Shown piece after piece: positions 29,540 through 56,612 of a stretch of 64,000 nucleotides of DNA. The stretch comes from Desulfotignum sp. (GTDB lineage Bacteria > Desulfobacterota > Desulfobacteria > Desulfobacterales > Desulfobacteraceae). The notes under the pieces were generated by a model. That model had not been told where the DNA came from. It was given only the letters and a program-made list of their open reading frames with translations, and ran no database searches. Position 1 is the first letter of the stretch. Every line of letters starts with the position of its first letter. Where the stretch lies: assembly GCA_011390635.1 (NCBI GenBank), contig JAABSA010000007.1:1-64000 (forward strand). Direction: 5' to 3'. The position numbers and the translations under genes were made by a program.

Positions 29540-31357
29540 TCAGTGCGGTGCCATGGAAGGAAACCGGGTGGCTGCGGAAAACCGTTCCACAAACCCTGGT
29601 TCTGTGGCCAGCTCAAGGAAGTTGACCCTGGGGGCCATGTCCTGGACCTCCTTGAGCCTATTTTTATCAAGCAGGGCCATGACGGCGCCGGTGCCGGCCA
29701 GGTTTTCTGCTGCAATCATTTGATTTTTGCAGATGTCAGGGGGCAGCATACCGATATCCCTGGCATTTTCCCAGTCAAATTTGACGCCGAATGCCCCGGT
29801 GAGGATGGTGCGGTCCACCTCTACAACCCCGGCCTTGTCCAGCAGCATCTGGATGCCCACAAACAGGGCAGCTTTGGCCAGCTGTACCTGGCGTACATCC
29901 TTGAGAATGAACCGGACATCGGTGCCCGGCAGGGTGAATGCCCGGCCGATGCCTATGTCATCACAGGTCACCCCGGGTTTGTCCGGGTCAAAAGAGCCGT
30001 CTTCTCTGATGATGCCGGTTCTGCGCATGGCAGCCAGGATATCGATGACCCCTGTCCCGCAGATGCCGGCTGCCGGGGCATTGTTGATGGTTTCATGAAA
30101 AATGGTGCCGTCGTCAACCCATACCCGGCTTACAGCGCCGGTGGCGGCCCGCATGCCGCTGGAGATCTGGGCGCCTTCCAAAGCCGGACCGGTGGCACAG
30201 CTGGTGGCCCAGATTTTTGCGCCGGTACACAGCATGAGTTCGCCATTGGTGCCGATATCAATGATCAAGGTGGTTTCTTTTCTGGTATGGGAAAGATCCC
30301 CGAGACAGGCTGCCAGGATATCCCCCCCCAGAAATCCGGATATCACCGGAAAGATATAGACAGGTACATTTTCTCCGGCATTGATGCCCAGATCGCGGCA
30401 GGTGAAAAAAAGGGTATCATGGAATACGGGCAGATACGGGGAAATGCCCAGGGTGTAAGGATTGAGGCCTGCAATGATATGTTCCATGGTGGTGTTGCCC
30501 ACCATGGTGATCTGGTCAATGGCATCCCGGTCTCTGCCAACCGCTTCCAGGCAGGTGTCAATGAGGTGGTTTATGGCCCCGATTCCCAATGCCTGCTGGG
30601 CTGCCAGACAGGCGGTGTCCTGACTCACTGCGGAAATCCGGGAGATAACGTCTTCCCCGTACCGGCGCTGGGGGTTGACCATAGCCTTTGCTGCCAGGAT
30701 GGTTCCTGCCGTCATATCACATATATAGGCGGCAATGGTGGTGGTGCCGATGTCAAAGGCAATTCCCAGCCCGGTCGGGTGCCGGCCTTTTTGCACGGAT
30801 ATCACGCCGGCATCATTGTGGCATACCACGGTCATATCACTGTCATGGATGGCAGGATCAGAAAGCGCCGCTAAAGGGAAGCGGTCAGAAAACCATATCT
30901 TTTCGGCGTATACAGATGCCACTCCATGGCATATTTTTTGGACCAGGCTGGGGGGAAGATCCCTGGAAGCCGCTTTGATTTGGGCTTTTGTTAAAAAAAA
31001 CCGCTGGGCTGCCGGATCAGTGGTGAATGTTCCCTGGATACCGGTTTTGCCGAACACCTCATTTCCCTGAATCAGTTTTTCCGGTACAGTTGCCTGTAAC
31101 GGTCCTTCTAAAATTTTTGCCTGACAGGACAGACGGTGATCAGGCCCTTTTTTTTTCAGCAGTTTTTGTTCCTGTTCGGTTCTGGGGGCCAGCCGCCCGG
31201 GATGGTCCACGATTACCCGGCATTTGCCGCAGGTGCCTTTTTCTCCGCAATCTGATCGCAGCAGTATGCCTTTGGAAAGAGCGGCTTGAAACAGGGTGGT
31301 CCCAACAGGTACGGTGACGCGCCGGCCAAAGGGTTCAAAAATAATGGTGATGATCAT
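29540..31357 (-). CDS. RACo-like corrinoid-protein activator (2Fe-2S ferredoxin + ASKHA ATPase)
   Basis: 605 residues from ATG 31357, with GGGGAA upstream; an earlier in-frame ATG has none. The N-terminal 2Fe-2S domain has Cys at C-x5-C-x2-C (DCGEKGTCGKC, about 34-43) and a fourth Cys near 78 (HRLSCQAK). A linker follows, then the RACo/DUF4445 ASKHA domain with phosphate loops GIAFDIGTTTIAAYI (about 220) and LIIDIGTNGELMLCTG (about 360), and GIGRAFTLPG late. Such proteins use ATP to push an electron into inactive Co(II)-corrinoid protein. It stands near three MttB genes, but not in an obvious operon with them, and probably serves a corrinoid protein encoded elsewhere. Confidence 0.87.
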   Translation of the reverse strand: MIITIIFEPFGRRVTVPVGTTLFQAALSKGILLRSDCGEKGTCGKCRVIVDHPGRLAPRTEQEQKLLKKKGPDHRLSCQAKILEGPLQATVPEKLIQGNEVFGKTGIQGTFTTDPAAQRFFLTKAQIKAASRDLPPSLVQKICHGVASVYAEKIWFSDRFPLAALSDPAIHDSDMTVVCHNDAGVISVQKGRHPTGLGIAFDIGTTTIAAYICDMTAGTILAAKAMVNPQRRYGEDVISRISAVSQDTACLAAQQALGIGAINHLIDTCLEAVGRDRDAIDQITMVGNTTMEHIIAGLNPYTLGISPYLPVFHDTLFFTCRDLGINAGENVPVYIFPVISGFLGGDILAACLGDLSHTRKETTLIIDIGTNGELMLCTGAKIWATSCATGPALEGAQISSGMRAATGAVSRVWVDDGTIFHETINNAPAAGICGTGVIDILAAMRRTGIIREDGSFDPDKPGVTCDDIGIGRAFTLPGTDVRFILKDVRQVQLAKAALFVGIQMLLDKAGVVEVDRTILTGAFGVKFDWENARDIGMLPPDICKNQMIAAENLAGTGAVMALLDKNRLKEVQDMAPRVNFLELATEPGFVERFSAATRFPSMAPH

Positions 31358-31438
31358 GGTATTCCCCATAGTTCTGTGTTCGCCTTTGCATCCTAAAATC
31401 AGGGGTTTTGTTTGTCAAGGCATTCCCTTTTCAGGTTG

Positions 31439-32302
31439 TCAATTAAACCAGATATCATTTTCCAGGTAGGCCTGGTCCAGTTTTTCCTGGTGGCTTTTAA
31501 GCTGTTCTCCCATATCGGCAGCCAGGGTATGAAGCAGATAATGGATCAGGCTGATCATGGATACCGGGGTGCCTAGAAACGGAATGCTCTTCTGGGGGGT
31601 GATCAGGACATGGTCGCTGAATTGAACCAGAGGGCAGGCGGCGCTGTCCGTGATCAGGATCTGACACAGGCCCTGGCGCCGGGGTATTTTGCCCAGGCGG
31701 ATCAGTTCATTGGGGTAGCGGGATGTGGCAATGACCACCACCGCCGTACCGCCGGGGGCAAAAATCATCTGGTCCATGCTGGTTCTGTCACTGCCATTGA
31801 GAATGCACACGTTGGCCCGGATTTTTGACATGGTCCATCCCATGTAGTGGGCAGATGAATAAGACAGCCTGGAACCCATGACATACACGGCCGGCGCTTC
31901 TTTCAATACGCTGCGCACGGCCTGTACCGTTGCAGGATCAATGTTTTTGTGCATGGCCCTGATGCTGCGGATATCCTGGTTGATGAGACGGTCCAGTTCC
32001 GCATCTTCACTGCCTGTCACCAGATGGCTCATCCTGCCGCGCTCCACCAGGGTCAGATCCCGGTCGATGAGGTCCCGCAGGGTATTGATGAAGACAGCAT
32101 AGTTCTTGAACCCCAGCTGCCGCACAAACCGGACAACGGTTGCCTCACTGGTGCCCACTGCTGCTGCCAGCTGCCGGGTGGTCATGAAAACCGCCTTTTC
32201 CGGACTGGACAAGACAAAATCTGCCAGACGTCTGCCTTTGGAAGCCAGGGTATCGTATTTTTCATGGATGGTGGTTTGCAGAAAGCCGGGTTGTCTGGTC
32301 AT
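31439..32302 (-). CDS. RpiR-family transcriptional regulator (HTH + SIS)
   Basis: 287 residues. An N-terminal RpiR helix-turn-helix (about 15-90: KGRRLADFVLSSPEKAVFMT and TRQLAAAVGTSEATVVRFVR) is followed by a linker and a SIS domain (about 130-270) for sugar-phosphate-type ligands (VYVMGSRLSYSSAHYMGWTM, VVVIATSRYPNELIRL). It is divergent from the first MttB gene, and similar GATAG-TTTTGT-ACA motifs occur in the shared promoter region. It likely controls the MttB/GlmS-like unit. The nearby giant SIS protein makes a phosphosugar-like signal attractive, but this is inference. Confidence 0.9.
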   Translation of the reverse strand: MTRQPGFLQTTIHEKYDTLASKGRRLADFVLSSPEKAVFMTTRQLAAAVGTSEATVVRFVRQLGFKNYAVFINTLRDLIDRDLTLVERGRMSHLVTGSEDAELDRLINQDIRSIRAMHKNIDPATVQAVRSVLKEAPAVYVMGSRLSYSSAHYMGWTMSKIRANVCILNGSDRTSMDQMIFAPGGTAVVVIATSRYPNELIRLGKIPRRQGLCQILITDSAACPLVQFSDHVLITPQKSIPFLGTPVSMISLIHYLLHTLAADMGEQLKSHQEKLDQAYLENDIWFN

Positions 32303-32379
32303 GTATGGTCCGTTTGTAAAAGTTCCAGTGGTTTTGTTTCGTGTTTGCCGGGCAGGGCAACCATGCTCTGATTTTTAAC

Positions 32380-32444
32380 GATAGTTTTGTAACAAAAATT
32401 ATCAAAATATACAAGCTATTAAAAAAAAGATAGCTTTTGTTACA
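32380..32444. promoter_or_regulatory. Candidate RpiR operators in divergent region
   Basis: GATAGTTTTGTAACA (32380-32394) and GATAGCTTTTGTTACA (32429-32444) are near-identical, 49 bases apart. The first contains a perfect TTTTGT-A-ACAAAA palindrome (32385-32397) placed between minus-strand TTGATA (32405-32400) and TATCGT (32383-32378), a possible rpiR promoter. AGCTAT/ATAGCT also flank an A tract (32414-32435). Confidence 0.45.
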
Positions 32445-32450
32445 CTTTTC

Positions 32451-32481
32451 TTGACACCAGGGCCGGACCATGCCATAAAAT
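32451..32481 (+). promoter_or_regulatory. Candidate promoter of first mttB-like gene
   Basis: TTGACA at 32451-32456 and TAAAAT at 32476-32481, 19 bases apart, about 70 bases before the start codon. The second RpiR-type motif ends seven bases upstream of the -35. Confidence 0.45.
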
Positions 32482-32552
32482 AAACTAATTGTCCATAATT
32501 TGCCGGACAGAAACCAAAAATTACATGAAAAAAACACCCTGAGGAGAAAGAT

Positions 32553-34013
32553 ATGAATTTGATGGGATTGCAGGGCGGGCAGTACCAGCCGCTTTCCGCA
32601 CAGCAGATTGACACCGTACACAACGCTGCATTGACCATTCTGGAAAAAACCGGGATCACCTATGAATCCGGTCTGGAAAAAACAGTGGACATGCTGGAAA
32701 AAAATGGTGCTGCAGTGAACCGGGAAAAAAAACGGATCATGTTCCCTAAGGACCTGGTGACCGCATCCGTGAAAAAAGCACCCAAGGAGGTATTGCTCTG
32801 CGGCCAGAATCCCGAGAATGATCTTCATTTGACCGAAGACCGGGTACATCTGGGAACCGGCGGGGCTGCCATCAAAATTCTGGACCCGGACACCGGCGAT
32901 GTCCGGGCCACCACCCTGGATGATCTGCACAAGGTATCCCGCCTGGTGGACCAGCTCAACAACATCCATTTTCTGGTACGGCCGTGTATTCCCACGGATA
33001 TAGATGAAAAAGACTATGATATCAACATGTTCTATGCATGTCTGTCAGCGTCCGGTAAACATGTCATGTCCGGGGTAAACAATGAGGAGGGTCTTCACCA
33101 GGTCATGTTAATGGCTTCCATGATCGCCGGCGGCAAGGATAAACTGGCTGAGCGGCCCATTATCTCCGTGATCACCTCCTTTGCCATCAGCCCACTGAAA
33201 CTGTGCACCCAGTCCACCCTGATCATGCAGGAAGCGGTCAGAAACAACATTCCCGTGGCCCTGTCCTCGGCCCCCATGGCCGGGTCCACCTCTCCTTTAA
33301 CCATGGCCGGAACCCTGGCACAGCTCCATGCCGAGGAATTGGCCGGCATCACCATCTGCCAGCTGACAAATCCCGGGGCGCCGTTGCTGTACGGCGGTAT
33401 CCCGGGCATGGCCAACCTGGCCACCATGGGATATTGTGGCGGGGCCGTTGAGTGCGGCATGATGAATGCTGCCATCCACCAGCTGTCCCGGCATATAGAA
33501 GTGCCCAATTACAATTCATCGGGCCTGTCTGATGCCAAGGTTCCCGATGCCCAGGCCGGGTATGAAAAAGCCTTGACTTCGGTGCTGGCATCAATGGGCG
33601 GTTCCAATTATATCCACCACAGTGCCGGCATGCTGGAATCCATGCTCACCATTGCCCATGAACAGTTTGTCATTGATGATGAAATCATCGGCAACTGCTG
33701 CAAGGTACTCAAGGGCATTGATGTGGATGCCGAGCATCTGGCACTGGAAGTAATTGATTCCGTTGGGCCTGGCGGAAATTTCATGACCGCCCCCCATACC
33801 ATGACCCATATCCGCAGTGAATATTACAAAAGCAACGGGGTGACGGACCGCAAAAATCGGGATCGCTGGGCAGCAGAAGGTTCCCTGGATGCCCGTCAGC
33901 GGGCCCTTGCCATTGCAAAAAAGCTGCTGGCCAACAAGACCGCCTATATTTCAGAGGATGTGGATGCCCTCATCCGGGAAAAATTCACAATTCTCGTGCC
34001 GAAACAAAGCTGA
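32553..34013 (+). CDS. MttB-family (non-pyrrolysine) methyltransferase 1
   Basis: 486 residues, GAGGAGAAAG ribosome site. The N-terminal PLSAQQIDTVHNAALTILEK and GITYESG segments and the central SSAPMAGSTSPLTMAGTLAQ and GAPLLYGGIPG segments are typical of the trimethylamine methyltransferase TIM-barrel family. The frame has no amber codon, so it lacks the pyrrolysine of true MttB; the known relative MtgB demethylates glycine betaine. It should pass a methyl group from a quaternary or methylated amine to a corrinoid protein, none of which is adjacent. It is divergent from the RpiR regulator and upstream of the giant GlmS-like gene. The substrate is unknown. Confidence 0.9.
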   Translation: MNLMGLQGGQYQPLSAQQIDTVHNAALTILEKTGITYESGLEKTVDMLEKNGAAVNREKKRIMFPKDLVTASVKKAPKEVLLCGQNPENDLHLTEDRVHLGTGGAAIKILDPDTGDVRATTLDDLHKVSRLVDQLNNIHFLVRPCIPTDIDEKDYDINMFYACLSASGKHVMSGVNNEEGLHQVMLMASMIAGGKDKLAERPIISVITSFAISPLKLCTQSTLIMQEAVRNNIPVALSSAPMAGSTSPLTMAGTLAQLHAEELAGITICQLTNPGAPLLYGGIPGMANLATMGYCGGAVECGMMNAAIHQLSRHIEVPNYNSSGLSDAKVPDAQAGYEKALTSVLASMGGSNYIHHSAGMLESMLTIAHEQFVIDDEIIGNCCKVLKGIDVDAEHLALEVIDSVGPGGNFMTAPHTMTHIRSEYYKSNGVTDRKNRDRWAAEGSLDARQRALAIAKKLLANKTAYISEDVDALIREKFTILVPKQS

Positions 34014-34072
34014 CCGCTCTGGCAAAAAGAAAGGCCGTCCTGCCGGCAGCATAAATCCTTCCACCGGACCAT

Positions 34073-34095
34073 GAAAAAACTGGATCAGTTTTTTC
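34073..34095 (+). terminator. Hairpin between mttB-like gene and giant gene
   Basis: GAAAAAACTG (34073-34082) and CAGTTTTTTC (34086-34095) form a perfect 10-base stem with a 3-base loop and a T-run in the 3' arm. It may end or attenuate the mttB transcript before the next gene. Confidence 0.45.
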
Positions 34096-34160
34096 AATTG
34101 TGTGCTACATAAATGGCGGTATCGGCGTGATCAGGGAAAATTGTTGAAGGAGAGAATCAT

Positions 34161-37100
34161 ATGTGCGGTATTGTTGTCTACTATGGGGATGCCCAGAACC
34201 GGCTGACAAGGATTTTAACCGGTATGTGGGCCATTGTTTACCGGGCCCCGGACAGCACCGGTATCGGGCTGCAGGGCAGTGACCTGGAGCCCATCAAGAT
34301 CCGGCGGGAACTGGGGTCGGTGGAAAATCTCATCGACCACCTTATGATCCATCCGGTGTTTGAAGAAGGCGACCTGCAGGCAGCTGCCCTCATGGATGAT
34401 GACAAAGAACACCATGCCGGACTCATGGACCGGATCCAGAACAAACTGCGTGCCTCCGAAGGGTTTTCCGGCAAAAAAAACACCGCTTTTCCCACATGGT
34501 CCCAAATGACGGATACACAGGCCATCTTTCATGTGGAACCAGGAACCTGTGGAGATCCAAAGTTACACAATATTTTCATCATTGATTCCCCCAAAGCATT
34601 GAAGGCTGCAGTGGATTGTATGATCATGGAGTATGATCTGCCGGCAGCGGTGGTGGAAAAACTGATTAAAAAAGGATTCCAGGAGCAGGTGGAAAAGGCC
34701 GCAAGATTTTCGCCCCTGCCGGTGGAACCATCGGATCTCTTCCATGAATTTGCCCAGATTTTTAACCGGTTTGCCTATGATGAAACACCGGTCCGTCCCC
34801 GGCGTGTGGACACCAAACAGGGCCAGAAAAATCCCTTTGCCAGAAAATATGTCTGGCACTACCTGCGGCAGGTGATTGTCACATTGCCCGCAGATTATAG
34901 TACAGACGGTATTGCCAATCTTTTCAGATATCTGGATGCCTGGGTCATGGCCGGCCTGACCTGCGAGGCTTCTGACCGTATCCAGCTGATATTTGAAAAT
35001 TTCTGGACAGCATATACTGACCAGCCTGCCCGGCACTGGCAGATTCTTTACCGGATTGAAAGAACCTGTAATTTTTACGGTCTTGCTGCCACTGCTGTCC
35101 TGGCGTATTATCAGACACGGGTCTATATGAAACAGACATCCAAAAGCCAGGCCGGTATTTACCTGCCCCTGGGTCATGTGCCGGGCCCCACCCACCCGCT
35201 TTTGCTCAGATCCATGGTCCAGCCGGTAATCGGACAGGGACGCTGGGCCATTCAGTCCGCTATCTCCGTGCGTAACGCCCACCCGTTCATGGACGAAGAT
35301 AAAGTCCGGGCAGTGGTGTTAAACGGTCAGTTTGATTCAGATGTGGAATCCCGGATCAAACAATATATTACCCAGGTGGCCGGCATTGGTCTGCGCACGG
35401 ACAATTCCACGGAATTGTTTGCCATGCTCTGGGGACATTATTTTGATACCGCCTACAAAGAAAACCAGCGGTACAAAACCATTGAAGACCAGCACCGCCT
35501 TGAACTGGAGGACATGTCCATCTGCAGCCAGTCCCTCGATTATACGATCTTCAAGGCCCTGAGTAAAAAAAATATCCATGATATCGATGAAATGGCCTTT
35601 ATCAAGGCGGTACAGGCCATGATCCCGTCAGGCGGCCAGTTTGCCGTATCCGGCATCAGCCGGGTGTCACCGGACCGGCTTTTTGTTGCAGCCCACAACC
35701 GGCCGATATATATTGTCAAGCGCCGGGAAACATCCGACTTCATGGTGGTGTCTGATATCAATGCCGCGCTGGGTCTGTTTCCCCAGACATTGATCCAGTC
35801 CACCCGGGTCAAGCTGATGAAGCTGATGAAAAATTATTCAAAAAAATCCATGATTGTGGAACCGGATTTTTTTGATATGAAACCCCCGACAGAAGATGAC
35901 TGGTTCAGGCAGGAAAAAAAAGCCCTGCTTGCCCCATTTTCTGTGGATATTTATGCCCTGGACCAGCCACAGATATTTGCACGGATTCAGACAAAACCCG
36001 GCAAGGATGCGGTAATGCGCCACTTGCATTTCCAGGATTTTTCCGGCAAAATCAGAACCGATATCCGATCCGAGCAGACATATATCACCCCTGTGTCATA
36101 TCAAAAGGATTTCGGGAAAACCTTTTACGAAGAACATCTGCTGGAAACCCCCGGCCTGATGACTGATATTTTGAACCGGTATACAGATGCTTCCATGTCT
36201 CTGCCCCGGTTTGATATCCGGCGCCGTCTTTTGGAGAGGCGTTTCGGCAGTAATATGGCCAACCTTAACCGGATCATCCTGGTGGGTACCGGATTCAGCT
36301 ATCTGGTGGCAGAAATTGTGGAAAGAACCATGGAGCCTTTTTTTTCCGGGATCAATCTTGTTGTGACGACTCCTGCGGATATCAGCCATGTAAAAACCGC
36401 CATCAACCCGGACCGGGACCTGGTGGTCATGGTTTCCTGGTCCGGCACCACTTCGGATATGATAGATTTCGCCATGGTGCTCCTCCGGCAGAATATTCTC
36501 ATGGTGGGTATCACGGAAAAACCGTTTTCCGACATGGCTCTGGTGGTGAGAAAAAGTGCCGGTGTAATTCCGGTGCTCAGCGGTGAAGAGGTCACTGTGG
36601 CGCCATTGAAAAGTGCCATGTGCATGCTTCTGATCCTGGATCTTTTCTGTTTGTATCTGTGCAGGGCCAGGTCGGATCAATCTGATACCATAGCTGACCT
36701 GATGAGAGAAATGCATACCCTGCCTCAGCATCTGGATGCCCTGCTCACGGATGAATCAGTGCCCGCATTTTGCACAGAATCCACCAAATCGTTGCAAAAG
36801 ATCGTGCTTCACTATATCGTTGATGCGTTTCACGATGTGGGAGCCGCTAAAATAGGGGCCTTGAACCTGGAACTCAATGCCTGGACCTCCATGGGAACTG
36901 CGGTTGATTATTCAGAACTGGACCGGTTTCTCGAGATTCCCATGACGGAAAATGATTTTATACTGGTGCTTGCCACCAACAGACAGCGTCTGGATGAGGC
37001 AGTCCGGTTCATGCGGGCACTGCACAGACAAAACACACATTTTATAGCCATTACCTACCAGAACAGGGAGCAGGAAGAGATCAAAAAACTGGCAGACCGG

Positions 37101-38696
37101 ATGATCCTGTTACCCAAGGTATCTGCCTATTTTCAACCGTTCATGGATTTGCCGTTTCTGTTTTTACTGGGATTTTATTTTGGTCTTTCCCAGGGCAGGC
37201 TGGCAGGTGAAATGCCCAGAAACATGGCCAAGTCGGTCACAGCAGGCAGGACAAAGAACGGCAGTGACTGGTCATTTTCCGATATCCTGGATGATATGGA
37301 CCGAAAGCAGCAGGCGTTGGGGCTTGGTATCTATCCCATGGTGTACCGGCCGGTGCCCCTTTGCTGGATCAACCTGGCAAAAGACAGCATTGAAAAGCAC
37401 TATTACCAGGATCTTATTCTGCTGGGAGCCGCCCTGCATGAAAATGATCCGTTTTCTGCTGTTTTTACCTGTTCCGATGATAATGGGCCTGAAATGCTGT
37501 CCCACATGATTTTTTCTCACCTGGCAGAGGACGGGATGCTGATTTTTGTTCCCATGGACAAAATGGCGGAAGCCGGGTGCCGGAATTTCGCCCGGTTGTG
37601 GGAACCGTTTTTGGGGATCCCCATCCAGGTGGAATTTGCCGAAAAACTCAAAAGCATCAGCCCGAAAGATAATCTGGTGGTGATCGTTGCTTCACAGATA
37701 CCGGAGAAAGACAGGTTGTCCGGGGTATTTGACTTTCCCCGTGAAAATCTGCTCTGGATCGGTCCGGAAAACGATGCAGTATCCCAAACAGTATCTGCCG
37801 GTTTTCATGAAGGATATTATGTGAAAAACCCCCACCTTCTGTGCCGGTATGAACATACATATATGGCACTGTCCCTGTTTTTTTCCAAGGTGATGTCCTT
37901 TCGGTTTCCCGGGCGGGCAAAACGGTTTGATGCCCATCTTAAGCTGATGCTGCCCATGGTGCAGACGATTCTGGCCGATGCCGGTCTGCACCGGCAATTG
38001 CAAAATGCCGTCAAGGAAAATCAGGCGTATAAAAAACGATTGTTTCTGACCGGTATGCGGGGAAACTGTATTACCTGGAAAACCCATTTCAGGGGCCAGC
38101 AATCCCGGGGCATAGAGAGCGATCTCTTCGGCGTTTCCGCTTATTCACATCTGGTCATGGTGGATTATCGGGTGGGGGAAAAATTTGTGAAACTTGTGCC
38201 TGGAAAAAATATGAAAGCCCTTTTTGGAGAGAGCCTGGTCAAAGAATGGGAAGCCCGCTATCTGGGGGGCGCAGCAGTGGATGAATTTTTATGCGAAACC
38301 TGCATGCCGTTTTCACCGGATACGGTTCTGCCCTTTTTTGTTGACAGCCAGTGGTATCTGCCGGTACTCAGGCCGGAATATGATACAGACCAGGATTGTC
38401 TTATCATTATTGATGCCACCAGCGAAGCCCGGTTTGATGCTGCCCTGGATGAACTTGCCACCTTCGGCAGCCGGTATGCCCGGATGGTTGCCATAACCCA
38501 GAAGGGTTTTTCCAAAGATGCCAGGCTGTCCAATTTGAAAAAATATCCCTTAAGCCACATAATACTGGTGCCTGGAATAGCTGAAAATACCGGTGATACC
38601 GGGACCATATCCGACTATCTGCTGCCTGTGGCAGTGGGCCTGGTGGGTGCTGCCATGAAATTTTTGGCTGCCCCCGCTGCGACGAACCCGGAATAG
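34161..38696 (+). CDS. Giant GlmS-like glutamine amidotransferase / SIS protein
   Basis: 1511 residues, AAGGAGAGAATCAT ribosome site. It begins MCGIVVYYGD with the Cys nucleophile at position 2 and YRAPDSTGIGL (R-x-x-D-S-x-G), as in class II glutaminase of GlmS. The matching second half (GQGRWAIQSAISVRNAHPF, about 357; VVLNGQFDSD; RTDNSTELFAML) comes about 250 residues later than in GlmS, so the glutaminase is split by a large insert. A SIS domain follows at about 690-850 (RIILVGTGFSYLVAEIVERT, then VMVSWSGTTSDM, about 758), then a second SIS-like domain at about 880-1010. Residues 1050-1511 are unassigned, with alternating hydrophobic strands that may be further degenerate SIS modules. GlmS itself has about 610 residues. 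The reaction is unknown; ammonia transfer to a phosphosugar-like compound is a guess. Confidence 0.8.
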   Translation: MCGIVVYYGDAQNRLTRILTGMWAIVYRAPDSTGIGLQGSDLEPIKIRRELGSVENLIDHLMIHPVFEEGDLQAAALMDDDKEHHAGLMDRIQNKLRASEGFSGKKNTAFPTWSQMTDTQAIFHVEPGTCGDPKLHNIFIIDSPKALKAAVDCMIMEYDLPAAVVEKLIKKGFQEQVEKAARFSPLPVEPSDLFHEFAQIFNRFAYDETPVRPRRVDTKQGQKNPFARKYVWHYLRQVIVTLPADYSTDGIANLFRYLDAWVMAGLTCEASDRIQLIFENFWTAYTDQPARHWQILYRIERTCNFYGLAATAVLAYYQTRVYMKQTSKSQAGIYLPLGHVPGPTHPLLLRSMVQPVIGQGRWAIQSAISVRNAHPFMDEDKVRAVVLNGQFDSDVESRIKQYITQVAGIGLRTDNSTELFAMLWGHYFDTAYKENQRYKTIEDQHRLELEDMSICSQSLDYTIFKALSKKNIHDIDEMAFIKAVQAMIPSGGQFAVSGISRVSPDRLFVAAHNRPIYIVKRRETSDFMVVSDINAALGLFPQTLIQSTRVKLMKLMKNYSKKSMIVEPDFFDMKPPTEDDWFRQEKKALLAPFSVDIYALDQPQIFARIQTKPGKDAVMRHLHFQDFSGKIRTDIRSEQTYITPVSYQKDFGKTFYEEHLLETPGLMTDILNRYTDASMSLPRFDIRRRLLERRFGSNMANLNRIILVGTGFSYLVAEIVERTMEPFFSGINLVVTTPADISHVKTAINPDRDLVVMVSWSGTTSDMIDFAMVLLRQNILMVGITEKPFSDMALVVRKSAGVIPVLSGEEVTVAPLKSAMCMLLILDLFCLYLCRARSDQSDTIADLMREMHTLPQHLDALLTDESVPAFCTESTKSLQKIVLHYIVDAFHDVGAAKIGALNLELNAWTSMGTAVDYSELDRFLEIPMTENDFILVLATNRQRLDEAVRFMRALHRQNTHFIAITYQNREQEEIKKLADRMILLPKVSAYFQPFMDLPFLFLLGFYFGLSQGRLAGEMPRNMAKSVTAGRTKNGSDWSFSDILDDMDRKQQALGLGIYPMVYRPVPLCWINLAKDSIEKHYYQDLILLGAALHENDPFSAVFTCSDDNGPEMLSHMIFSHLAEDGMLIFVPMDKMAEAGCRNFARLWEPFLGIPIQVEFAEKLKSISPKDNLVVIVASQIPEKDRLSGVFDFPRENLLWIGPENDAVSQTVSAGFHEGYYVKNPHLLCRYEHTYMALSLFFSKVMSFRFPGRAKRFDAHLKLMLPMVQTILADAGLHRQLQNAVKENQAYKKRLFLTGMRGNCITWKTHFRGQQSRGIESDLFGVSAYSHLVMVDYRVGEKFVKLVPGKNMKALFGESLVKEWEARYLGGAAVDEFLCETCMPFSPDTVLPFFVDSQWYLPVLRPEYDTDQDCLIIIDATSEARFDAALDELATFGSRYARMVAITQKGFSKDARLSNLKKYPLSHIILVPGIAENTGDTGTISDYLLPVAVGLVGAAMKFLAAPAATNPE

Positions 38697-38708
38697 CCCA
38701 TACATGAA

Positions 38709-38754
38709 ATGGTGCCCGCAATCACCGGCATATAGCCGTGATTGCGGGCACCAT
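38709..38754 (+). terminator. Strong terminator after giant GlmS-like gene
   Basis: GGTGCCCGCAATCAC and GTGATTGCGGGCACC pair perfectly, extended by ATand CGGC/GCCG with one bulged C, followed by a short T run. It lies 13 bases beyond the stop. Confidence 0.75.
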
Positions 38755-38847: not shown

Positions 38848-40278
38848 TTACAGGGTTGCCAGTGCCTCTTCCGCCCGGGAAGTCTTCTGGACCTCATGGG
38901 AAGAAAGCAGCGCTTTTGCCTTTTCATTGCACCGGGCGAACAGATCGGTATTACCCTGCTTTTCCCAGGTTTCAAACCTGGATCTGTCCATGAGTTCCGG
39001 CATGAGATGGGCTGTGCGGAAATGGGCAAAGGTATGGGGATCACTTAAAAATATGGCATTTTCAGAACTTTTGCTGACCCGGTCAATGACGTCCAGGGCC
39101 AGGGTTTGCTCGTTCACAGGGATGCCCTGGACAAAAAATTTGGCCATGGCCACCATTTCATCCGCCATGGTCAGCATTTCCAGACTGGAGGTGTGACCGG
39201 ATTCAATATACCCCACATCATGGATGACATTGCACCGGGACAGCATGGCCGTGATAATGGAAAGCATGCCTTCGGCCCCTGCCTGGGCATCAATGACCTT
39301 GGAATCGGTCGAACCGGCAAAGGACCAGATGGGAATCTGGTAGAGTTCATCACGCATGTCGGCAAAGGCGGCCTGGGTGAGGCTCCATTCCGTACATCCG
39401 TAAGACACCACCGTATGTTTCATGTCCAGAACAGAAACATTGGGAGCAAATAAAAACGGTGCGCCTTTGTTCGCCAGCTGGTGAATCACAAGTCCCACCA
39501 GGTTTTCAGCGATGCCCTGGGCCATGGCACCGGCAAGGGTCACAGGTCCTCCGCCCCCGGCATTGCACCCTGAAGGCAGACAGATGGGGATCTCTTTTTC
39601 AGCACAGAACACCAGTTTTTCCATGACGTTTTCCGGATAATGCAGCGGGCTGATGGCTTCGGAATAGTTGAATAAAAATGGTTTTTTGCGCAGCTCTTTT
39701 TCTCCGCCCATAACAGCGCAGGCGATGTCATATATCTGTTTTATGTCCCTGCCGCTGTCGGCAATAAAACAGATGGGTTTGTTGCTGTTGCGGACCATTT
39801 CCTCAAAAACCTGGACATAGATCTGTTCAATGTCCACATCTTCAGGGTTTCCCATGGACATGGAAAAATCCATATTGGGCAGCGCATCCACCAGCCTGGC
39901 AAAATTGCCGGTGTCTGCCAGTACCGGCCGTCTTCTTTCGCCGGTTTCAAGGTCAATGGTAAAAATCGTATCAGACCCTGTGCCAAAGAAAAAGTTTTCT
40001 CCTTCAAGGGGCATGGCCAGGTTTCCGGCCTGATCGTAGATATCAAATTTTTTGGGGGCAGACATGACCGCATTTTCCACCAGGGCTTCGGGCATGGTCA
40101 CGCGGTTGTCTTTATCCATGCTGCACCCGTTGTCCAGCAGCATTTCCAGGACCCCGTCATGTTCCATGCGGAACCCTGTGGTGGCTAGAATTTTCAAGGC
40201 GGCATCGTGGATGGCCATGGCTTGTTTTTTATTAAAGACCTTTAACCGGGGTTGAAAGGTCGTTACATCTTTTAACAT
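38848..40278 (-). CDS. MttB-family (non-pyrrolysine) methyltransferase 2
   Basis: 476 residues, GGGAGAAAA ribosome site. Family motifs include KQAMAIHDAALKILATTGFRM, ENFFFGTGSDTIFTID and LPSGCNAGGGGPVTLAGAMA, with GAPFLFAPNVSVLDMKH later. The frame has no amber codon. It differs clearly from the other two copies (GCNAGGGGPVTLAG against SAPMAGSTSPLTMAG), so they are probably not recent duplicates and may use different substrates. It is encoded 71 bases after a SAM-methyltransferase gene on the same strand and probably in one transcript with it. It should transfer a methyl group to a corrinoid protein not seen here. Confidence 0.9.
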   Translation of the reverse strand: MLKDVTTFQPRLKVFNKKQAMAIHDAALKILATTGFRMEHDGVLEMLLDNGCSMDKDNRVTMPEALVENAVMSAPKKFDIYDQAGNLAMPLEGENFFFGTGSDTIFTIDLETGERRRPVLADTGNFARLVDALPNMDFSMSMGNPEDVDIEQIYVQVFEEMVRNSNKPICFIADSGRDIKQIYDIACAVMGGEKELRKKPFLFNYSEAISPLHYPENVMEKLVFCAEKEIPICLPSGCNAGGGGPVTLAGAMAQGIAENLVGLVIHQLANKGAPFLFAPNVSVLDMKHTVVSYGCTEWSLTQAAFADMRDELYQIPIWSFAGSTDSKVIDAQAGAEGMLSIITAMLSRCNVIHDVGYIESGHTSSLEMLTMADEMVAMAKFFVQGIPVNEQTLALDVIDRVSKSSENAIFLSDPHTFAHFRTAHLMPELMDRSRFETWEKQGNTDLFARCNEKAKALLSSHEVQKTSRAEEALATL

Positions 40279-40349: not shown

Positions 40350-41111
40350 TTACTGGTATTGCCGGAGCATCTTGCCTGAAATGGGTTCCTGTTTTTTCCC
40401 CACCACGGCATAATAGTTCAGCGGGGTTCCGTCCAGGCAAAGACGGTGCTGGTAGCGCTCTTTTTCAACGATTTTCATGACATCGGATTCCACCATATCC
40501 CCAATGAGTTTTGAAAATCCGGAGGGATGGTTTTCCTGGAGGAATTCATCCTTGATGTTAAAGGCGACCCAGCCGTCGTCCGCTATGAGATTATATGCGC
40601 TGGCAAAGGCTTCCGGCGGGATATCATCAAAGCCCAGAGCTGCCACAATGGACATGCAGTTGGGATTTTTTTCAACAATTTCAGACTCCACATCATCCGG
40701 CAGGGCGGTCAGATCTTCTATGTAATAGGCATCATAAATGCCGGGACGGTCTCGCTCGGTGGCCTGCAGGGCTTCTTCAATAATATCGATGCCCAGCACC
40801 GTGTCAAAACCGATCTGTGCCAGTTCTTCTCCCACCATGCCGTTGCCGGCCCCCACATCCAGGGCCACCAGTTCATCAGCCTCATATCTGGTGCCGTTGA
40901 TGGCTTTGTCCAGAAGGCCGCATACAACTTTGGGGGACTGGCAGGCCAGGGTGTCATAAAAGAGGTTCTCATACAGCCCGGGAATTTTGTAAATTTCCGC
41001 ATAATTATGGGTGAGCAGCTCTTTGGTTTTGCCTTTGTAGGTGACGATGATTTTTTCTTTTCCCTGGTCTGCTTTTTTTACTTTTGGTAAAATAAATGAA
41101 AAATTTTTCAT
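40350..41111 (-). CDS. Class I SAM-dependent methyltransferase
   Basis: 253 residues, AGGAGAAAGAG ribosome site. The Rossmann SAM-binding motif I is ALDVGAGNGMVGEELAQIG (about 83-101), the acidic post-motif is LGIDIIEEAL and motif IV lies near SIVAALGFDDIPPEAF. The N-terminal 60 residues hold helices that may choose the substrate. It is probably co-transcribed with MttB copy 2. Such an enzyme next to a demethylating MttB is unusual; it may methylate an amine or act on a small molecule linked to the same substrate. Confidence 0.82.
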   Translation of the reverse strand: MKNFSFILPKVKKADQGKEKIIVTYKGKTKELLTHNYAEIYKIPGLYENLFYDTLACQSPKVVCGLLDKAINGTRYEADELVALDVGAGNGMVGEELAQIGFDTVLGIDIIEEALQATERDRPGIYDAYYIEDLTALPDDVESEIVEKNPNCMSIVAALGFDDIPPEAFASAYNLIADDGWVAFNIKDEFLQENHPSGFSKLIGDMVESDVMKIVEKERYQHRLCLDGTPLNYYAVVGKKQEPISGKMLRQYQ

Positions 41112-41349: not shown

Positions 41350-41862
41350 TTAAATATTGCCGTTGGGATCTGTCAGGTTTTCGTCCGGATGCATGACGTG
41401 TCTGGGTGGGTTCGGTGCGTTGGCTGCCGGGGCTGTCTGGTCCAGCATATCCACCAGCAGTTCCAGTCCCCACAGGAGCATCGAAACATCTTTGGCTTTC
41501 ATCTGTTCCAGTTTTTTCATAAACCGGTGGTGGATGGGGGTGGGGGCATCTTCCAGAAATGTGAGACCGGCCCGGGTGATTTCCACATGCACCTGCCTGC
41601 GGTCTTTGCTGATTCTGATCCGCTGGACCAGTTTGCGTTTTTCCAGGCGGTCGATGATGCCGGTGACAGTGGAGTTGTTGATAAAGACAATTTGTGTTAA
41701 CGCACCAATTGCAATGGGACCGTGGTCAGCAACCTCTTTGAGACAGATCAGCTGGGGAAGGGTGATGTTGTATTTTTCCTGAAGCTGTTTTGAGTGTCTG
41801 GACATTTCCTGAATGATCTGCCGAAGCCGCATCATGATCTGCATGCTGATGTTTTCTTCCAT
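41350..41862 (-). CDS. MarR-family transcriptional regulator
   Basis: 170 residues with the MarR winged helix: ITLPQLICLKEVADHGPIAI, then ALTQIVFINNSTVTGIIDRL (recognition helix) and the wing KRKLVQRIRISKDRRQVHVE. A Pro/Asn-rich C-terminal tail (about 145-170) is extra. It lies upstream of the SAM-methyltransferase/MttB pair on the same strand and divergent from the MTHF reductase gene, and tandem palindromes in the shared region are its likely operators. The ligand is unknown. Confidence 0.9.
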   Translation of the reverse strand: MEENISMQIMMRLRQIIQEMSRHSKQLQEKYNITLPQLICLKEVADHGPIAIGALTQIVFINNSTVTGIIDRLEKRKLVQRIRISKDRRQVHVEITRAGLTFLEDAPTPIHHRFMKKLEQMKAKDVSMLLWGLELLVDMLDQTAPAANAPNPPRHVMHPDENLTDPNGNI

Positions 41863-48848: not shown

Positions 48849-51014
48849 TCAGGCAGTCGCCAGCATCATGCGTTCATCTCCCCGCTCCATGGCCAGTTCC
48901 GTGAGTTTGTCCGCAGGAATATGGCACAAAATTTTGTGCCCGTTTGGCAGCCGCTGAAATTCAGGTTTTTTCTGTTCACAGATTTTGCCGTTATCCGGCA
49001 GCACGGAACGTCTTGGGCACCGGGTATGAAAACAGCACCCCGACGGCCGGTTGGTGGGGCTGGGTACCTCCCCGGACAGGATAATGGACTGGCGCCGGGC
49101 CGAAGGGTCCGGGATGGGAACAGAGGACAAAAGCGCTTCGGAATAGGGGTGATAGGGTGGTGGATAAATGGCGGACACCGGTCCGAACTCCACGATTTCC
49201 CCCAGGTACATGACCGCCACAAGATCGGAAATAAACCGCACTACGCTCAGATCATGGGCAATAAAGATCATGGTGGAGCCCATGCTTTCCTTGATCTCAT
49301 TGAGCAGGTTCAGCACCGCTGCCGCCACTGATACATCCAGGGCGGATACGGGTTCGTCACAGATGACCAGAGACGGCCTGCTGGCCAAAGCCCTGGCAAT
49401 ACCGATGCGCTGTTTTTCTCCACCGGAAAGCTGCCGGGGATACCGGTCATAATAATAGTCTGCCAGTTTTACCGCCTTGAGGAGACGTTCCACTTCCTGG
49501 CGTACTTTCCTTTTCGGAACGGTTTTGAACTTGTGGATGGGCCGGGCGATCTGTGCCCCCACGGAATAGGAGGGGTTCAGGGTGGAATCCGGGTTCTGAA
49601 ATACCATCTGCAGTTCCCGGATCAACGACAGGTCCCGTTTCTGGGCCGGCAGGTTCAGGTCGATACCCATGAGTTCCACCGTGCCGCCTGTGAGTTCTTC
49701 CAGACCGATGATGCCTTTCACCAGGGTACTTTTGCCGCAGCCCGATTCCCCCACGATGCCCAGGGTTGTGCCCTTGAGAACCTTCAGGGAGATGTCATCC
49801 ACTGCTTTGACATGTGATTTTTTTTCCAGGCCCAGAATGGCCCGCAAAGAGGGATTTTGTTCCGGATAATACAGTTTCATGTTCCGGATATTCAGCAGTG
49901 TGTCCATGGAAGTGAAATCATCGTCCCCTTCAGCCATCTGAATGACGGAATCCTTCTGACCCCGGGAATAATCATCATAGGGTACCTTCAGGGTTTCTCT
50001 GCCCAGAAAGCAGCGGGACCAGTGATCTTCGGATATGGCCAGCAGCTCGGGGTGCTGTGAGGTGCAGTTGGCGGTGAGGCTTTTGTCCTCTAGGTGTGTG
50101 CCTTCCAGGCGCCAGTCGCACCTGGGGGCGAAGATACAGGCATCAAGGTCTCGTTCCGCCGGGTCCGGCACCCGTCCACGTATGGACCACAGACGGTTGT
50201 TGGACAAGCTGTCCCCCAGGCGGGGCACACAACACAAAAGTCCCCGGGTATAGGGATGGGCCGGGTTGGCAAACAGGTCCTTTATGGGGCCCTGTTCCAC
50301 CATTTCACCTGCATACATGACGCAAAGCCGGTCACTCACCTTGGCCACCACTCCCAGGTTGTGGGTGATGAAGATGATCCCGGTATTGAAATCTTTTTTC
50401 AGATCCTCTACCAGATCCAGGACCGCCGCTTCCACGGTTACGTCCAATGCCGTGGTGGGTTCGTCCATGATGAGCAGAGAGGGGTTGTTGAGCAGGGCCA
50501 TGGCTATCACCACCCGCTGCTGCTGGCCCCCGGATATCATGTGGACATACCGGTTCATCACATTGGCGGCATCCGGCATGTACACCCGTTCCAGCATGGC
50601 GATACACCGGTTTCGTGCCTCCTTCGACGTTATGTCGGTGTGGGCCGTGAGCACCTCTGTGAGCTGGGTCCCGATGGTCAAAGACGGGTTCAGGGCCTGC
50701 ATGGGATCCTGGTATACCATGGAGATGTTGTTGCCCCGGATTTTGCGCAGCTCCGCCTTGGGGGTGCCCACCATTTCCCTTCCCATGAACTTGATGCTGC
50801 CCCCCACTACTTTGCCGTTGGAACCTAAAAAATCAAGAATACCAAATGCAATGGTGCTTTTGCCGCATCCTGATTCCCCCACCACCCCCACGGTCTGTCC
50901 CTGCCTGACGGTGAAATTGACACCCCTGACCGCAGGTACCAATTGTTTGCGGGTCTGGTAGGAAATGGCCAGGTCCTTGACTTCCAATACCGGTATATCT
51001 GATGCATGTTCCAT
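48849..51014 (-). CDS. Fused peptide-type ABC transporter ATPase (DppD-DppF)
   Basis: 721 residues with two ABC domains. The first has Walker A GVVGESGCGKSTIAFGIL (about 37-54), signature ISGGQQQRVVIAMALL and Walker B LLIMDEPTTALD. The second has GIVGESGCGKSTLVKGII (about 410), LSGGEKQRIGIARALA and LVICDEPVSALD. Each ends with an oligopeptide-type C-terminal Cys region (FAPRCDWR, then CCFHTRCPRRSVLPDNGKIC). Fusion of DppD and DppF in one chain is common. It powers the importer with the adjacent permeases. A hairpin separates it from the permease genes. Confidence 0.93.
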   Translation of the reverse strand: MEHASDIPVLEVKDLAISYQTRKQLVPAVRGVNFTVRQGQTVGVVGESGCGKSTIAFGILDFLGSNGKVVGGSIKFMGREMVGTPKAELRKIRGNNISMVYQDPMQALNPSLTIGTQLTEVLTAHTDITSKEARNRCIAMLERVYMPDAANVMNRYVHMISGGQQQRVVIAMALLNNPSLLIMDEPTTALDVTVEAAVLDLVEDLKKDFNTGIIFITHNLGVVAKVSDRLCVMYAGEMVEQGPIKDLFANPAHPYTRGLLCCVPRLGDSLSNNRLWSIRGRVPDPAERDLDACIFAPRCDWRLEGTHLEDKSLTANCTSQHPELLAISEDHWSRCFLGRETLKVPYDDYSRGQKDSVIQMAEGDDDFTSMDTLLNIRNMKLYYPEQNPSLRAILGLEKKSHVKAVDDISLKVLKGTTLGIVGESGCGKSTLVKGIIGLEELTGGTVELMGIDLNLPAQKRDLSLIRELQMVFQNPDSTLNPSYSVGAQIARPIHKFKTVPKRKVRQEVERLLKAVKLADYYYDRYPRQLSGGEKQRIGIARALASRPSLVICDEPVSALDVSVAAAVLNLLNEIKESMGSTMIFIAHDLSVVRFISDLVAVMYLGEIVEFGPVSAIYPPPYHPYSEALLSSVPIPDPSARRQSIILSGEVPSPTNRPSGCCFHTRCPRRSVLPDNGKICEQKKPEFQRLPNGHKILCHIPADKLTELAMERGDERMMLATA

Positions 51015-51035
51015 AGGATCGCTTTCGTTGTCAGG

Positions 51036-51059
51036 GCCGGGCAGCAGGTGCTGCCCGGC
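51036..51059 (-). terminator. Hairpin between permease and ATPase genes
   Basis: GCCGGGCAGCA (51036-51046) and TGCTGCCCGGC (51049-51059) form a perfect 11-base stem with a 2-base loop. Lacking a T run, it is more likely a message-stabilising element than a terminator. Confidence 0.45.
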
Positions 51060-51065
51060 ACATGG

Positions 51066-51983
51066 TTACTGATATCTCATGGATTCTTCCCGAATCCCAT
51101 CTGCCAGGAGATTAAGCCCCACCACCAGCGAAGCGATGGCAAGGGACGGCCACAGGGCTGCATACGGGTTGCCTGTCAGGATAAAGGCCCGTCCTTTGGC
51201 AACCATGGAACCCCAGTCCGGTGATGGCGGCGGCATGCCAAGGCCCAAAAATCCCAGGGTTCCCATGGCAAAGATGGCATACCCGATCCTGAGCATGGCA
51301 TCGATGATGATGGGGCCCCGGGTGTTGGGCAGGATTTCCACAAACATGATGAACCAGGCGCTTTCCCCCCGGGTCTCTGCCGCCCGGATATATTCACGGG
51401 TTTTGATGTCCAGGGTCAGACTCCTTACCAGCCGGGCGATGCCCGGCACCCCCACAATGGAAATGGCGATGACCACATTGACTGCGGATGCACCGATAGC
51501 GACCACGATGATCAGATAGAGCAGGATGACCGGTATGGCCATCATGGCATCCAGAAGCCGCATGACAAGTTCGTCGAGCCATCCGCCCTTATAGCCGCCG
51601 ATCAACCCCAAAGTGGCACCGATGAGCAGGGCCACCACCACTCCCCAGATGGCGGTACCCCCGGGCAGAGATATGTTTTCCGATACCGGCAGCACCACCA
51701 GAACCACCCGGGCGCCATAGATCAGCCGTGTCCAAAGGTCTCTTCCCAGTTCGTCGGTGCCCAGGATATGCTGGGCAGACGGTCCCTGGTTGGGGGCTTT
51801 CCAGTCCTGTTCAAAAGGGGTGTACGGGGTGAGAAACGGGGCGAACAGGGCCACAAACACCCAGAACAGGACAATGACCAGTCCCACCATGGCGATTTTG
51901 GAACTGAGCAGGATGGTGAACATGTCCTTGAGCCGTATTTTTTTGGTTTTTGTTGTATTTTGGGTTTCAACTGTTTCAGGCAT
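51066..51983 (-). CDS. Peptide-type ABC permease (DppC-like)
   Basis: 305 residues, about six membrane helices. The start has the DppC TM1 (SKIAMVGLVIVLFWVFVALF) and the periplasmic HILGTDELGRDLWTRLIYGA motif. The coupling loop RSLTLDIKTREYIRAAETRG and GPIIIDAMLRIGYAIFAMG follow. It overlaps the DppB-like gene by eight bases and forms the translocation pore with it. Confidence 0.93.
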   Translation of the reverse strand: MPETVETQNTTKTKKIRLKDMFTILLSSKIAMVGLVIVLFWVFVALFAPFLTPYTPFEQDWKAPNQGPSAQHILGTDELGRDLWTRLIYGARVVLVVLPVSENISLPGGTAIWGVVVALLIGATLGLIGGYKGGWLDELVMRLLDAMMAIPVILLYLIIVVAIGASAVNVVIAISIVGVPGIARLVRSLTLDIKTREYIRAAETRGESAWFIMFVEILPNTRGPIIIDAMLRIGYAIFAMGTLGFLGLGMPPPSPDWGSMVAKGRAFILTGNPYAALWPSLAIASLVVGLNLLADGIREESMRYQ

Positions 51984-53274
51984 ACCGTATCCTCGGATTC
52001 AAAAAGGTGTAGATGATGTCGGCCACCAGCTGGGTGCCGACGGCCACCAGCACCATGATCATGGCACCGGCTTCCAGGGCGTTGAAATCTTTATACAGTG
52101 CTGATTCCAGCAGATAGGCCCCCAGTCCCGGGTATCCAAACACCACCTCCACGATGACGATCCCCCCCAGCAGCCAGTTGACATGGAGCATGATCACGGT
52201 GATGGGGGCGATGAGGGCGTTTTTCACTGCATGCTTGAACACCACTTTTTTATAAGGGAGCCCCTTGAGAAATGCGGTGCGGATATAGGGTGATTTCATG
52301 ACCTCCACCATGGAGGCACGGGTGATGCGCAGTATATATCCCAGTTCGATGAGGGTGAGGGTGAGCACCGGCAGGATCAGCATCATGGGCTTTTCCCAGG
52401 GCGCAGACGTGCCCAGAACTGCAGCACCCGGCAGCCATCCCAGCCAGACGGAAAAGATCAGGGTCAGAAAAATACCGGTGGCAAACTCCGGCACCACGGA
52501 AAACATCATGCCGCCCACCGATAAGAACCGGTCCTTGACAGATCCTTCCTGAAGTCCGGCAATCAGCCCCAAAAGCAGGGCCAGGGGCATGACAATGACA
52601 AAGGCGGTGCCTGCCAGGACCACGGAGTTGCGTAATCTGGTCCACAGGCTTTTGTTCACCGGCCGGCCGGTGCGGAAAGAAACACCGGGATCACCTCTGA
52701 CAAATCCTTTTTTCAAAGGGATGTAGTCTTTGGGGCCGCCGGAACTTTCCATCCACCCCTTGCCCATGACAAACACAAACATGGTTTCGGTTTCACCCTT
52801 GACCCAGCGAACCGCATGGTTCTGGCGGTCAATCCCCCAGAATTGCTGTTTGCCGTCTTCGATTTCCTGCCACCGGCCATTGTCCACATATTCTGTTTTT
52901 TCACCGTCCTCGGTAATAACAATGGCCACCAGATCATCCCCGTCCACTTTCCAGCGGATCAATGCCCCGTCTTTTCTGACGGCCCACCACTCCTCAAAAT
53001 CTTCTTCCGTGGTGATCCGCTTCAGGGGCATGCCGATTTGTTTTTCAGCGATCCAGTCGTTGCCGGCGATCCAGTGCAGGTACCGCACATACATGGGCTG
53101 GTCCAGGCCGTTCTGCCGTATAAAGGCGGCTTCCTGTTCCGGGGTGATAAAGGCCCCCAGCACATTTTTGGCAATGTTGCCGGGGGAGGATTCGGCAATG
53201 ACAAAAACCGCCACTGACACCAGGATCATGGTCAGCAGCAACAGGAAGAACCTTCGGAGAATAAAGACAATCAT
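51976..53274 (-). CDS. Peptide-type ABC permease (DppB-like) with large periplasmic insert
   Basis: 432 residues; DppB proteins usually have 305-340. TM1 (FILRRFFLLLLTMILVSVAV) and the PGN segment near residue 30 are normal, but about 120 residues are inserted between YLHWIAGN (about 70) and the usual DPGVSFRTGRPVNKSLW (about 197). The insert has repeated Trp- and Asp-rich strands (GALIRWKVDGDDLVAIVITE, GRWQEIEDGKQQFWGIDRQN). It should lie in the periplasm where the binding protein docks. The C-terminal membrane core and coupling loop (MKSPYIRTAFLKGLPYKKVV) are typical. Confidence 0.9.
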   Translation of the reverse strand: MIVFILRRFFLLLLTMILVSVAVFVIAESSPGNIAKNVLGAFITPEQEAAFIRQNGLDQPMYVRYLHWIAGNDWIAEKQIGMPLKRITTEEDFEEWWAVRKDGALIRWKVDGDDLVAIVITEDGEKTEYVDNGRWQEIEDGKQQFWGIDRQNHAVRWVKGETETMFVFVMGKGWMESSGGPKDYIPLKKGFVRGDPGVSFRTGRPVNKSLWTRLRNSVVLAGTAFVIVMPLALLLGLIAGLQEGSVKDRFLSVGGMMFSVVPEFATGIFLTLIFSVWLGWLPGAAVLGTSAPWEKPMMLILPVLTLTLIELGYILRITRASMVEVMKSPYIRTAFLKGLPYKKVVFKHAVKNALIAPITVIMLHVNWLLGGIVIVEVVFGYPGLGAYLLESALYKDFNALEAGAMIMVLVAVGTQLVADIIYTFLNPRIRYA

Positions 53275-53300
53275 AAAATTCCCTGTCCCTTGGTTTCAGG

Positions 53301-53332
53301 TGCCCGCACGCAGAAAATCTGCTGTGCGGGCA
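53301..53332 (-). terminator. Intra-operon hairpin after solute-binding protein gene
   Basis: TGCCCGCACGCAGA (53301-53314) pairs with TCTGC-T-GTGCGGGCA (53318-53332) with one bulge and a three-base loop. It sits just after the binding-protein stop and would raise its level over the permeases. Confidence 0.55.
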
Positions 53333-53346
53333 GCACAGGTTTTTAT

Positions 53347-54990: not shown

Positions 54991-55124
54991 GCTTGCCTCC
55001 TTTTTTTTTATGGTGGATGATACAGTATTTTTATACAAATCCCTGGTCCGTTGAATCTGTATGGTTATTACATGCCAGGCTGTTTAATGCAATTTTTTTT
55101 ACTTGTTTTTTTAATAAAGGTGCT

Positions 55125-56594: not shown

Positions 56595-56612
56595 GTGCGT
56601 TCCTTTCAAAAG

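Follow-up and report, generated by a model that had tools for sequence, protein, structure and literature searches.

Why should a 1,511-amino acid (aa) protein related to GlmS be encoded directly behind a methyltransferase of the MttB superfamily? The question is raised by contig JAABSA010000007.1 of Desulfotignum sp., positions 1-64,000 (this whole stretch of 64,000 nucleotides (nt) is called the window, and all coordinates below without a locus name are positions in it). The protein, here referred to as the giant (34161-38696, + strand; SIS match 2.5e-13), is encoded by one open frame starting with MCGI and lacking an internal stop, is present in a single copy in its own genome, and starts 147 nt after the methyltransferase gene mttB1 (32553-34013, + strand). 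The coordinates and reading frames that the initial annotation of the window gave for the giant, mttB1 and the regulator gene rpiR proved right. We found that the giant represents a conserved, GlmS-derived, clearly non-canonical protein family, and that the association of this family with quaternary-amine uptake and corrinoid demethylation greatly exceeds what chance would give. Together with its neighbourhood, the giant points to an undescribed step in the breakdown of betaine-like compounds. No description of the family was found in the literature searched, which leaves out most subscription journals.

The neighbourhood was counted in stretches fetched around the giant from 38 genomes outside the genus of the window, and the expectation was taken from genome-wide gene counts. 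MttB genes were found beside the giant in 19 of these 38 genomes (0.9 expected), and OpuAC betaine-type binding proteins in 16 (0.5 expected). As the expected values take gene positions as random and the genomes are not independent of one another, the size of the excess, and not an exact p-value, carries the argument. The initial annotation had made its proposal depend on conservation of this neighbourhood in relatives; since it is conserved outside the genus, the link to corrinoid demethylation is real. At least one one-carbon (C1) or betaine gene was present near the giant in 32 of the 38 loci. In 13 loci the gene immediately preceding the giant encodes MmgE/PrpD, and MtgC-type corrinoid proteins, MtgA-type methyltransferases, RACo and SoxA/SoxG were recurrent neighbours. 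A protein of about 308 aa with no Pfam or NCBIfam match also recurs near OpuC genes and the giant (L047:17235-18158 and seven further loci), often with a metallophosphoesterase.

MttB1 is a non-pyrrolysine member of the MttB superfamily (PF06253, E-value 3e-107; 358.9 bits against a cut-off of 25 bits), to which MtgB (2qne, 9yce), MtcB and MtyB also belong. It aligns with 2qne at an E-value of 2e-76, but shares only 33% identity with MtgB and falls into a distinct subclade of the tree. The MttBs encoded upstream of giants on the same strand form one main subclade, i.e., that of MttB1, and a second, short and divergent one; the one sampled member that does not adjoin a giant lies 24 kb from one. 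With membership set at a working limit of about 57% identity or more, the main subclade and the giant are associated in their occurrence (both present in 30 of 389 genomes, odds ratio 12.7, p 3e-14), also when only genomes outside the family are considered (p 4e-4, assuming about 330 of them). Glycine betaine was dropped as the leading idea for the MttB1 substrate, because the same genome encodes a separate MttB that is 49% identical to MtgB. A pyrrolysine-type mttB with one in-frame TAG is also present elsewhere in this genome (G000:C71:43737-45152).

Relatives of the giant were identified in 27 of the 86 genomes of the family, in 54 of the 389 of the class and in four further genomes elsewhere in the phylum sample, mostly at full length wherever the contig permits, with identity over the whole length falling to about 31%. 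None were found among viral contigs or on plasmids, and a scan of genome contigs revealed one relative only, whose copy lacks the stretch from the GRWA to the NGQF motif. Every segment, insert and C-terminus included, is under purifying selection (ratio of nonsynonymous to synonymous rates, dN/dS, 0.02-0.23), with values of 0.02-0.07 for the N-terminal 65 residues. Some giants reach about 1,810-1,850 aa through an additional C-terminal stretch, which resembles the end of a GlmS-like protein of about 1,240 aa from the same order (profile E-value 3.7e-7, probability 93%). Two members deserve separate mention. In a metagenome-assembled genome (L031:1218-5585), the frame stays open although some 56 residues, from the GRWA through the NGQF motif, are missing, which may be an assembly error or a real deletion, and the giant at L075:7279-12156 contains tandem peptide repeats of low complexity (NKDNGDQGTV-like and TPDCKGFTPM-like) in the insert and the C-terminal region.

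The domain order is that of GlmS/GFAT (TIGR01135; Escherichia coli GlmS, human GFAT1), namely an N-terminal-Cys Ntn glutaminase-like domain followed by tandem SIS domains with the phosphate loop S-x-S-G-x-T and a C-terminal AKSVT lysine. On the + strand of the window, the Ntn domain begins with residues 1-65 (34161-34355), including Cys2 (34164-34166, equivalent to GlmS Cys1), R28 and D31. It is then interrupted, between the region after the DSTG motif and the GRWA motif, by an insert of about 280 residues (about 66-345; 34356-35195), and is completed, together with a linker, by residues 346-620 (35196-36020) with R361 and W362, H374, N388 and G389, and S416 at the Asp123 position. The SIS pair (residues 690-1030; 36228-37250) contains the loop S759, W760, S761, T764, as well as E810 and K1024 (equivalent to Lys603), and terminates in a PRNxAKSVT tail. 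Family profiles aligned the SIS pair over its whole length with GFAT1/GlmS (E-value 1.3e-30 for GFAT1) and matched the latter half of the Ntn domain to GFAT1 at 9e-5, a relationship well outside the reach of chance. NagB-II type glucosamine-6-phosphate deaminases (8eol) share the related tandem SIS fold, but have no Ntn domain, and the giant profile aligns with them more weakly (2.6e-8 versus 1e-30).

The GlmS relationship, with its Cys2 start, thus stands as first annotated, and so do both additions to it, with corrected sizes: the insert had been put at roughly 250 residues, and the unassigned C-terminus at 450 where about 480 were found (1031-1511; 37251-38693, + strand). The insert profile gave no match to Pfam or PDB profiles, and neither did the C-terminal region, in which no Pfam SIS hit was obtained in 21 members. 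The C-terminal profile is, nevertheless, collinear with the giant's own SIS pair and with canonical GlmS (E-values 6.6e-5 to 2.2e-4, probability 45-64%), and a reversed profile used as a control matched nothing; on this weak evidence we read the region, with moderate confidence, as a decayed second SIS pair. Two-sequence AlphaFold models reached predicted local distance difference test (pLDDT) values of 42 and 34, too low to contribute to this reading, that of the insert (42) being an all-helical model of low confidence.

Although the giant derives from GlmS, it stands in a clade apart and has an invariant active site of its own. It scores far below the curated GlmS cut-offs (TIGR01135, 112 versus 418 bits; NF001484, 135 versus 381 bits), and trees of the SIS and Ntn parts (the latter rough) separate three clades, i.e., giant, large and canonical GlmS. 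The active site was mapped on E. coli GlmS numbering in 46 homologues, 45 of them readable at the N-terminus. The equivalents of Cys1, R26 and D29 are invariant in all 45 readable giants, R73, H86 and E396 are likewise kept in all readable ones, and the oxyanion-hole residues N98/G99 and the Schiff-base K603 are retained in 46/46. In the phosphate loop, S347 and S349 are each conserved in 45 of 46 (S349 being Thr in one) and T352 in 44 (Ser in two). Against this stands a set of changes: Asp123, which binds the alpha-amino group of glutamine in GlmS, is Ser in all 46, G27A and H77Q are uniform as well, and Q348 is Trp in 45. The ring-opening H504 is lost (the column holds Phe, Ala, Thr, Tyr, Gln and others), and the base E488 is Glu in 28 giants and Leu in 14, including that of the window (Leu905). 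Glutaminase residues had been named at the outset as the point to check in homologues, and Cys1, R26, R73, N98 and G99 are indeed kept, although Asp123 and His77 are not. As the substitutions are uniform while the nucleophile and the Schiff-base lysine are retained, they argue for a changed substrate and not for decay. Given Ser at 123, Gln at 77, the loss of H504 and Leu at 488 in the genus of the window, the giant is unlikely to perform GlmS chemistry proper; amide-nitrogen transfer is no more than plausible. The suggested joining of amide-nitrogen or amino-sugar chemistry to corrinoid demethylation thus finds partial support. One may speculate that the near-invariant Trp holds a quaternary ammonium group.

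In the window, the gene order is RACo-type activase, rpiR, mttB1, giant, mttB2, S-adenosylmethionine (SAM)-dependent methyltransferase and MarR regulator. The 287-aa RpiR (31439-32302, - strand, divergent from mttB1) has HTH_6 and SIS domains, both over the Pfam cut-off, which confirms the SIS assignment made initially. The promoter between rpiR and mttB1 contains an operator-like pair (32385-32444, unstranded; TTTTGTAACAAAA at 32385-32397 and TTTTGTTACA at 32435-32444), followed by TTGACA. Zero such pairs are expected in 100 shuffles, and the pair is conserved within the genus and, in part, in a second one. The shared operator-like repeats first described therefore reduce to this one pair, as no copy was found upstream of the giant. 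Adjacency to MttB is conserved, but RpiR is tied to mttB1 and does not regulate the giant in particular, since it stays with mttB1 where the giant is absent; in many genomes, mttB1 loci without a giant keep RpiR, OpuC, PrpD, MtgC or SoxA neighbours. Co-transcription of mttB1 and the giant seems probable.

The RACo-type corrinoid reductive activase (29540-31369, - strand; PF14574, 4e-68) is encoded close to the giant also in loci L041, L042, L061, L064 and L072. Beyond the giant, a 17-nt perfect inverted repeat, terminator-like (38709-38754, unstranded), separates it from the convergent mttB2 (38848-40278, - strand; PF06253, 4e-83), which forms its own clade in the tree. MttB2 is accompanied by the SAM-dependent methyltransferase (40350-41111, - strand), a pairing seen in 10 loci, and by the MarR-family regulator (41350-41862, - strand). 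Further away, a second quaternary-amine-type locus (48849-58556) comprises a Dpp-type ATP-binding cassette transporter with its binding protein, another MttB (55125-56609) and an AFOR-like protein, which reads as an aldehyde ferredoxin oxidoreductase. Transporter genes akin to this Dpp-type set occur near giants in L049 and L067.

The explanation that we favour, and whose prospects of being right we regard as even, is that the giant is a neofunctionalised GlmS paralogue serving a pathway of quaternary-amine uptake and demethylation together with MttB1, an MtgC-type protein and MtgA. It would presumably act in this pathway on an amide and an open-chain phosphorylated carbonyl compound. A betaine-like quaternary amine would be imported by an OpuC-type or Dpp-type transporter and demethylated by the MttB1 subfamily, the methyl group passing to the MtgC-type corrinoid protein and then, through MtgA, to tetrahydrofolate. 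As its sequence shows, the giant has a Cys-nucleophile Ntn domain with an intact oxyanion hole, joined to tandem SIS domains with an intact phosphate loop and the Schiff-base lysine K1024. The Ntn domain may split an amide without a free alpha-ammonium group and so release ammonia or the amine portion, as the Asp that holds this group in GlmS is replaced by Ser. A phosphorylated carbonyl compound in open-chain form, bound on the S-W-S-G-T-T loop and K1024, could then be the acceptor or the donor of the released group, ring opening by His504 being unnecessary, and the product may feed or complete the catabolism of the demethylated amine. RpiR would bind the rpiR-mttB1 operator and switch mttB1, and the giant by read-through, upon a phosphorylated intermediate.

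Several observations weigh against this explanation. Six of the 38 giant loci have no C1 or betaine neighbour. The partnership with mttB1 is not obligate, as the giant is absent from 30 of 60 genomes with mttB1, and mttB1 from 24 of 54 with the giant. Finally, with Leu in place of E488, isomerase chemistry in the genus of the window is doubtful. A broader claim, less likely than not, is that the giant defines a new enzyme class, a GlmS-derived split Ntn amidohydrolase with a large insert and four SIS-type domains, which would move or remove the amide nitrogen on a quaternary-amine conjugate and, together with MttB1, MtgC/MtgA, an OpuC transporter and MmgE/PrpD, constitute an undescribed anaerobic pathway for a sediment osmolyte.

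It is unlikely, though worth serious attention, that the giant is instead a catabolic amidase combined with a deglycase or deaminase, opening a quaternary-amine conjugate (an amide or amino-sugar derivative) for MttB1. Two kinds of uptake system, OpuC- and Dpp-type, lie nearby, and related GlmS-type SIS proteins include deaminases (8eol). Moreover, in three loci without a giant (L163:7114-8022, L167:9550-10461 and L170:5398-6306) mttB1 is accompanied by a CN-hydrolase-like gene of the nitrilase/amidase type, an assignment read from the start motif and not from a scan, whereas the 48 giant loci contain no such gene. That an unrelated amidase stands in for the giant is, however, only weakly hinted at, because there are three loci, two of them from one genus. 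To our knowledge, no natural conjugate substrate of that kind has been described, which weighs against this possibility.

A little less credible is a non-enzymatic regulator or scaffold, in which decayed GlmS domains sense an amide and a sugar phosphate and control the demethylation proteins. SIS domains are often sensors, RpiR itself being an example, and the lost H504, the variable E488 and the degenerate C-terminal SIS-like pair would agree with such a role. On the other hand, the nucleophilic Cys, the oxyanion Asn/Gly and the Schiff-base Lys, needless for mere binding, are invariant even among the most divergent homologues.

It is improbable that the giant is a second, stress- or substrate-regulated GlmS converting glutamine and fructose-6-phosphate into glucosamine-6-phosphate, despite its GlmS-type domain order and its retention of Cys1, N98/G99, the phosphate loop and Lys603. 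That canonical GlmS over the curated cut-off was found in none of the 86 family genomes (against 93 of 118 in a sample of the phylum) also speaks for such an enzyme. Nearly every family genome, however, encodes the GlmS-like protein of about 1,240 aa (own copy G000:C39:59722-61431, L102; others L103-L115), which retains E488 and H504 and, read by eye as the joint MAFFT alignment misplaces the ends of these large proteins, also D123 and the tail lysine. Its Cys, likewise read by eye, belongs to a CGI[CS]A-type motif that lies inside the protein and is preceded by a propeptide-like N-terminal stretch. It is the sole GlmS-like enzyme of the family with both parts intact and may fill the housekeeping GlmS role in the order. 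Like the giant it is GlmS-derived and enlarged, but it belongs to a separate clade and has its inserts at other sites. With such a protein in the order, and with the giant in a clade of its own, a housekeeping role of the giant is unlikely; the patchy distribution of the giant in the family and its active-site changes also speak against a second GlmS.

Slightly poorer still are the prospects of an action on the corrinoid machinery itself, e.g., amidation or maturation of the cofactor or the carrier protein. In L058, L061 and L064, the gene next after the giant codes for MtgA, a MetH-activation-like protein or RACo, with no adjacent MttB, but the partners met most often are uptake proteins, MttB and PrpD, and the known corrin amidations are performed by unrelated CobB/CobQ-type enzymes. 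That the neighbourhood is merely incidental can practically be dismissed: MttB is abundant in these genomes (up to 29 per genome), yet this abundance is already contained in the expectations that the MttB and OpuAC counts exceed, and where a genome has a single MttB or OpuAC gene (G141, G712), it still adjoins the giant.

Many proteins of the MttB superfamily have no known substrate, and the giant, as a large and conserved partner with a readable active site, narrows the search for that of one widespread subclade. In sulfate-reducing bacteria, it could bring to light an overlooked pathway of quaternary-amine degradation, and thereby a path for methyl groups and ammonia. The family further shows that, within one phylum, GlmS has been enlarged and repurposed more than once.

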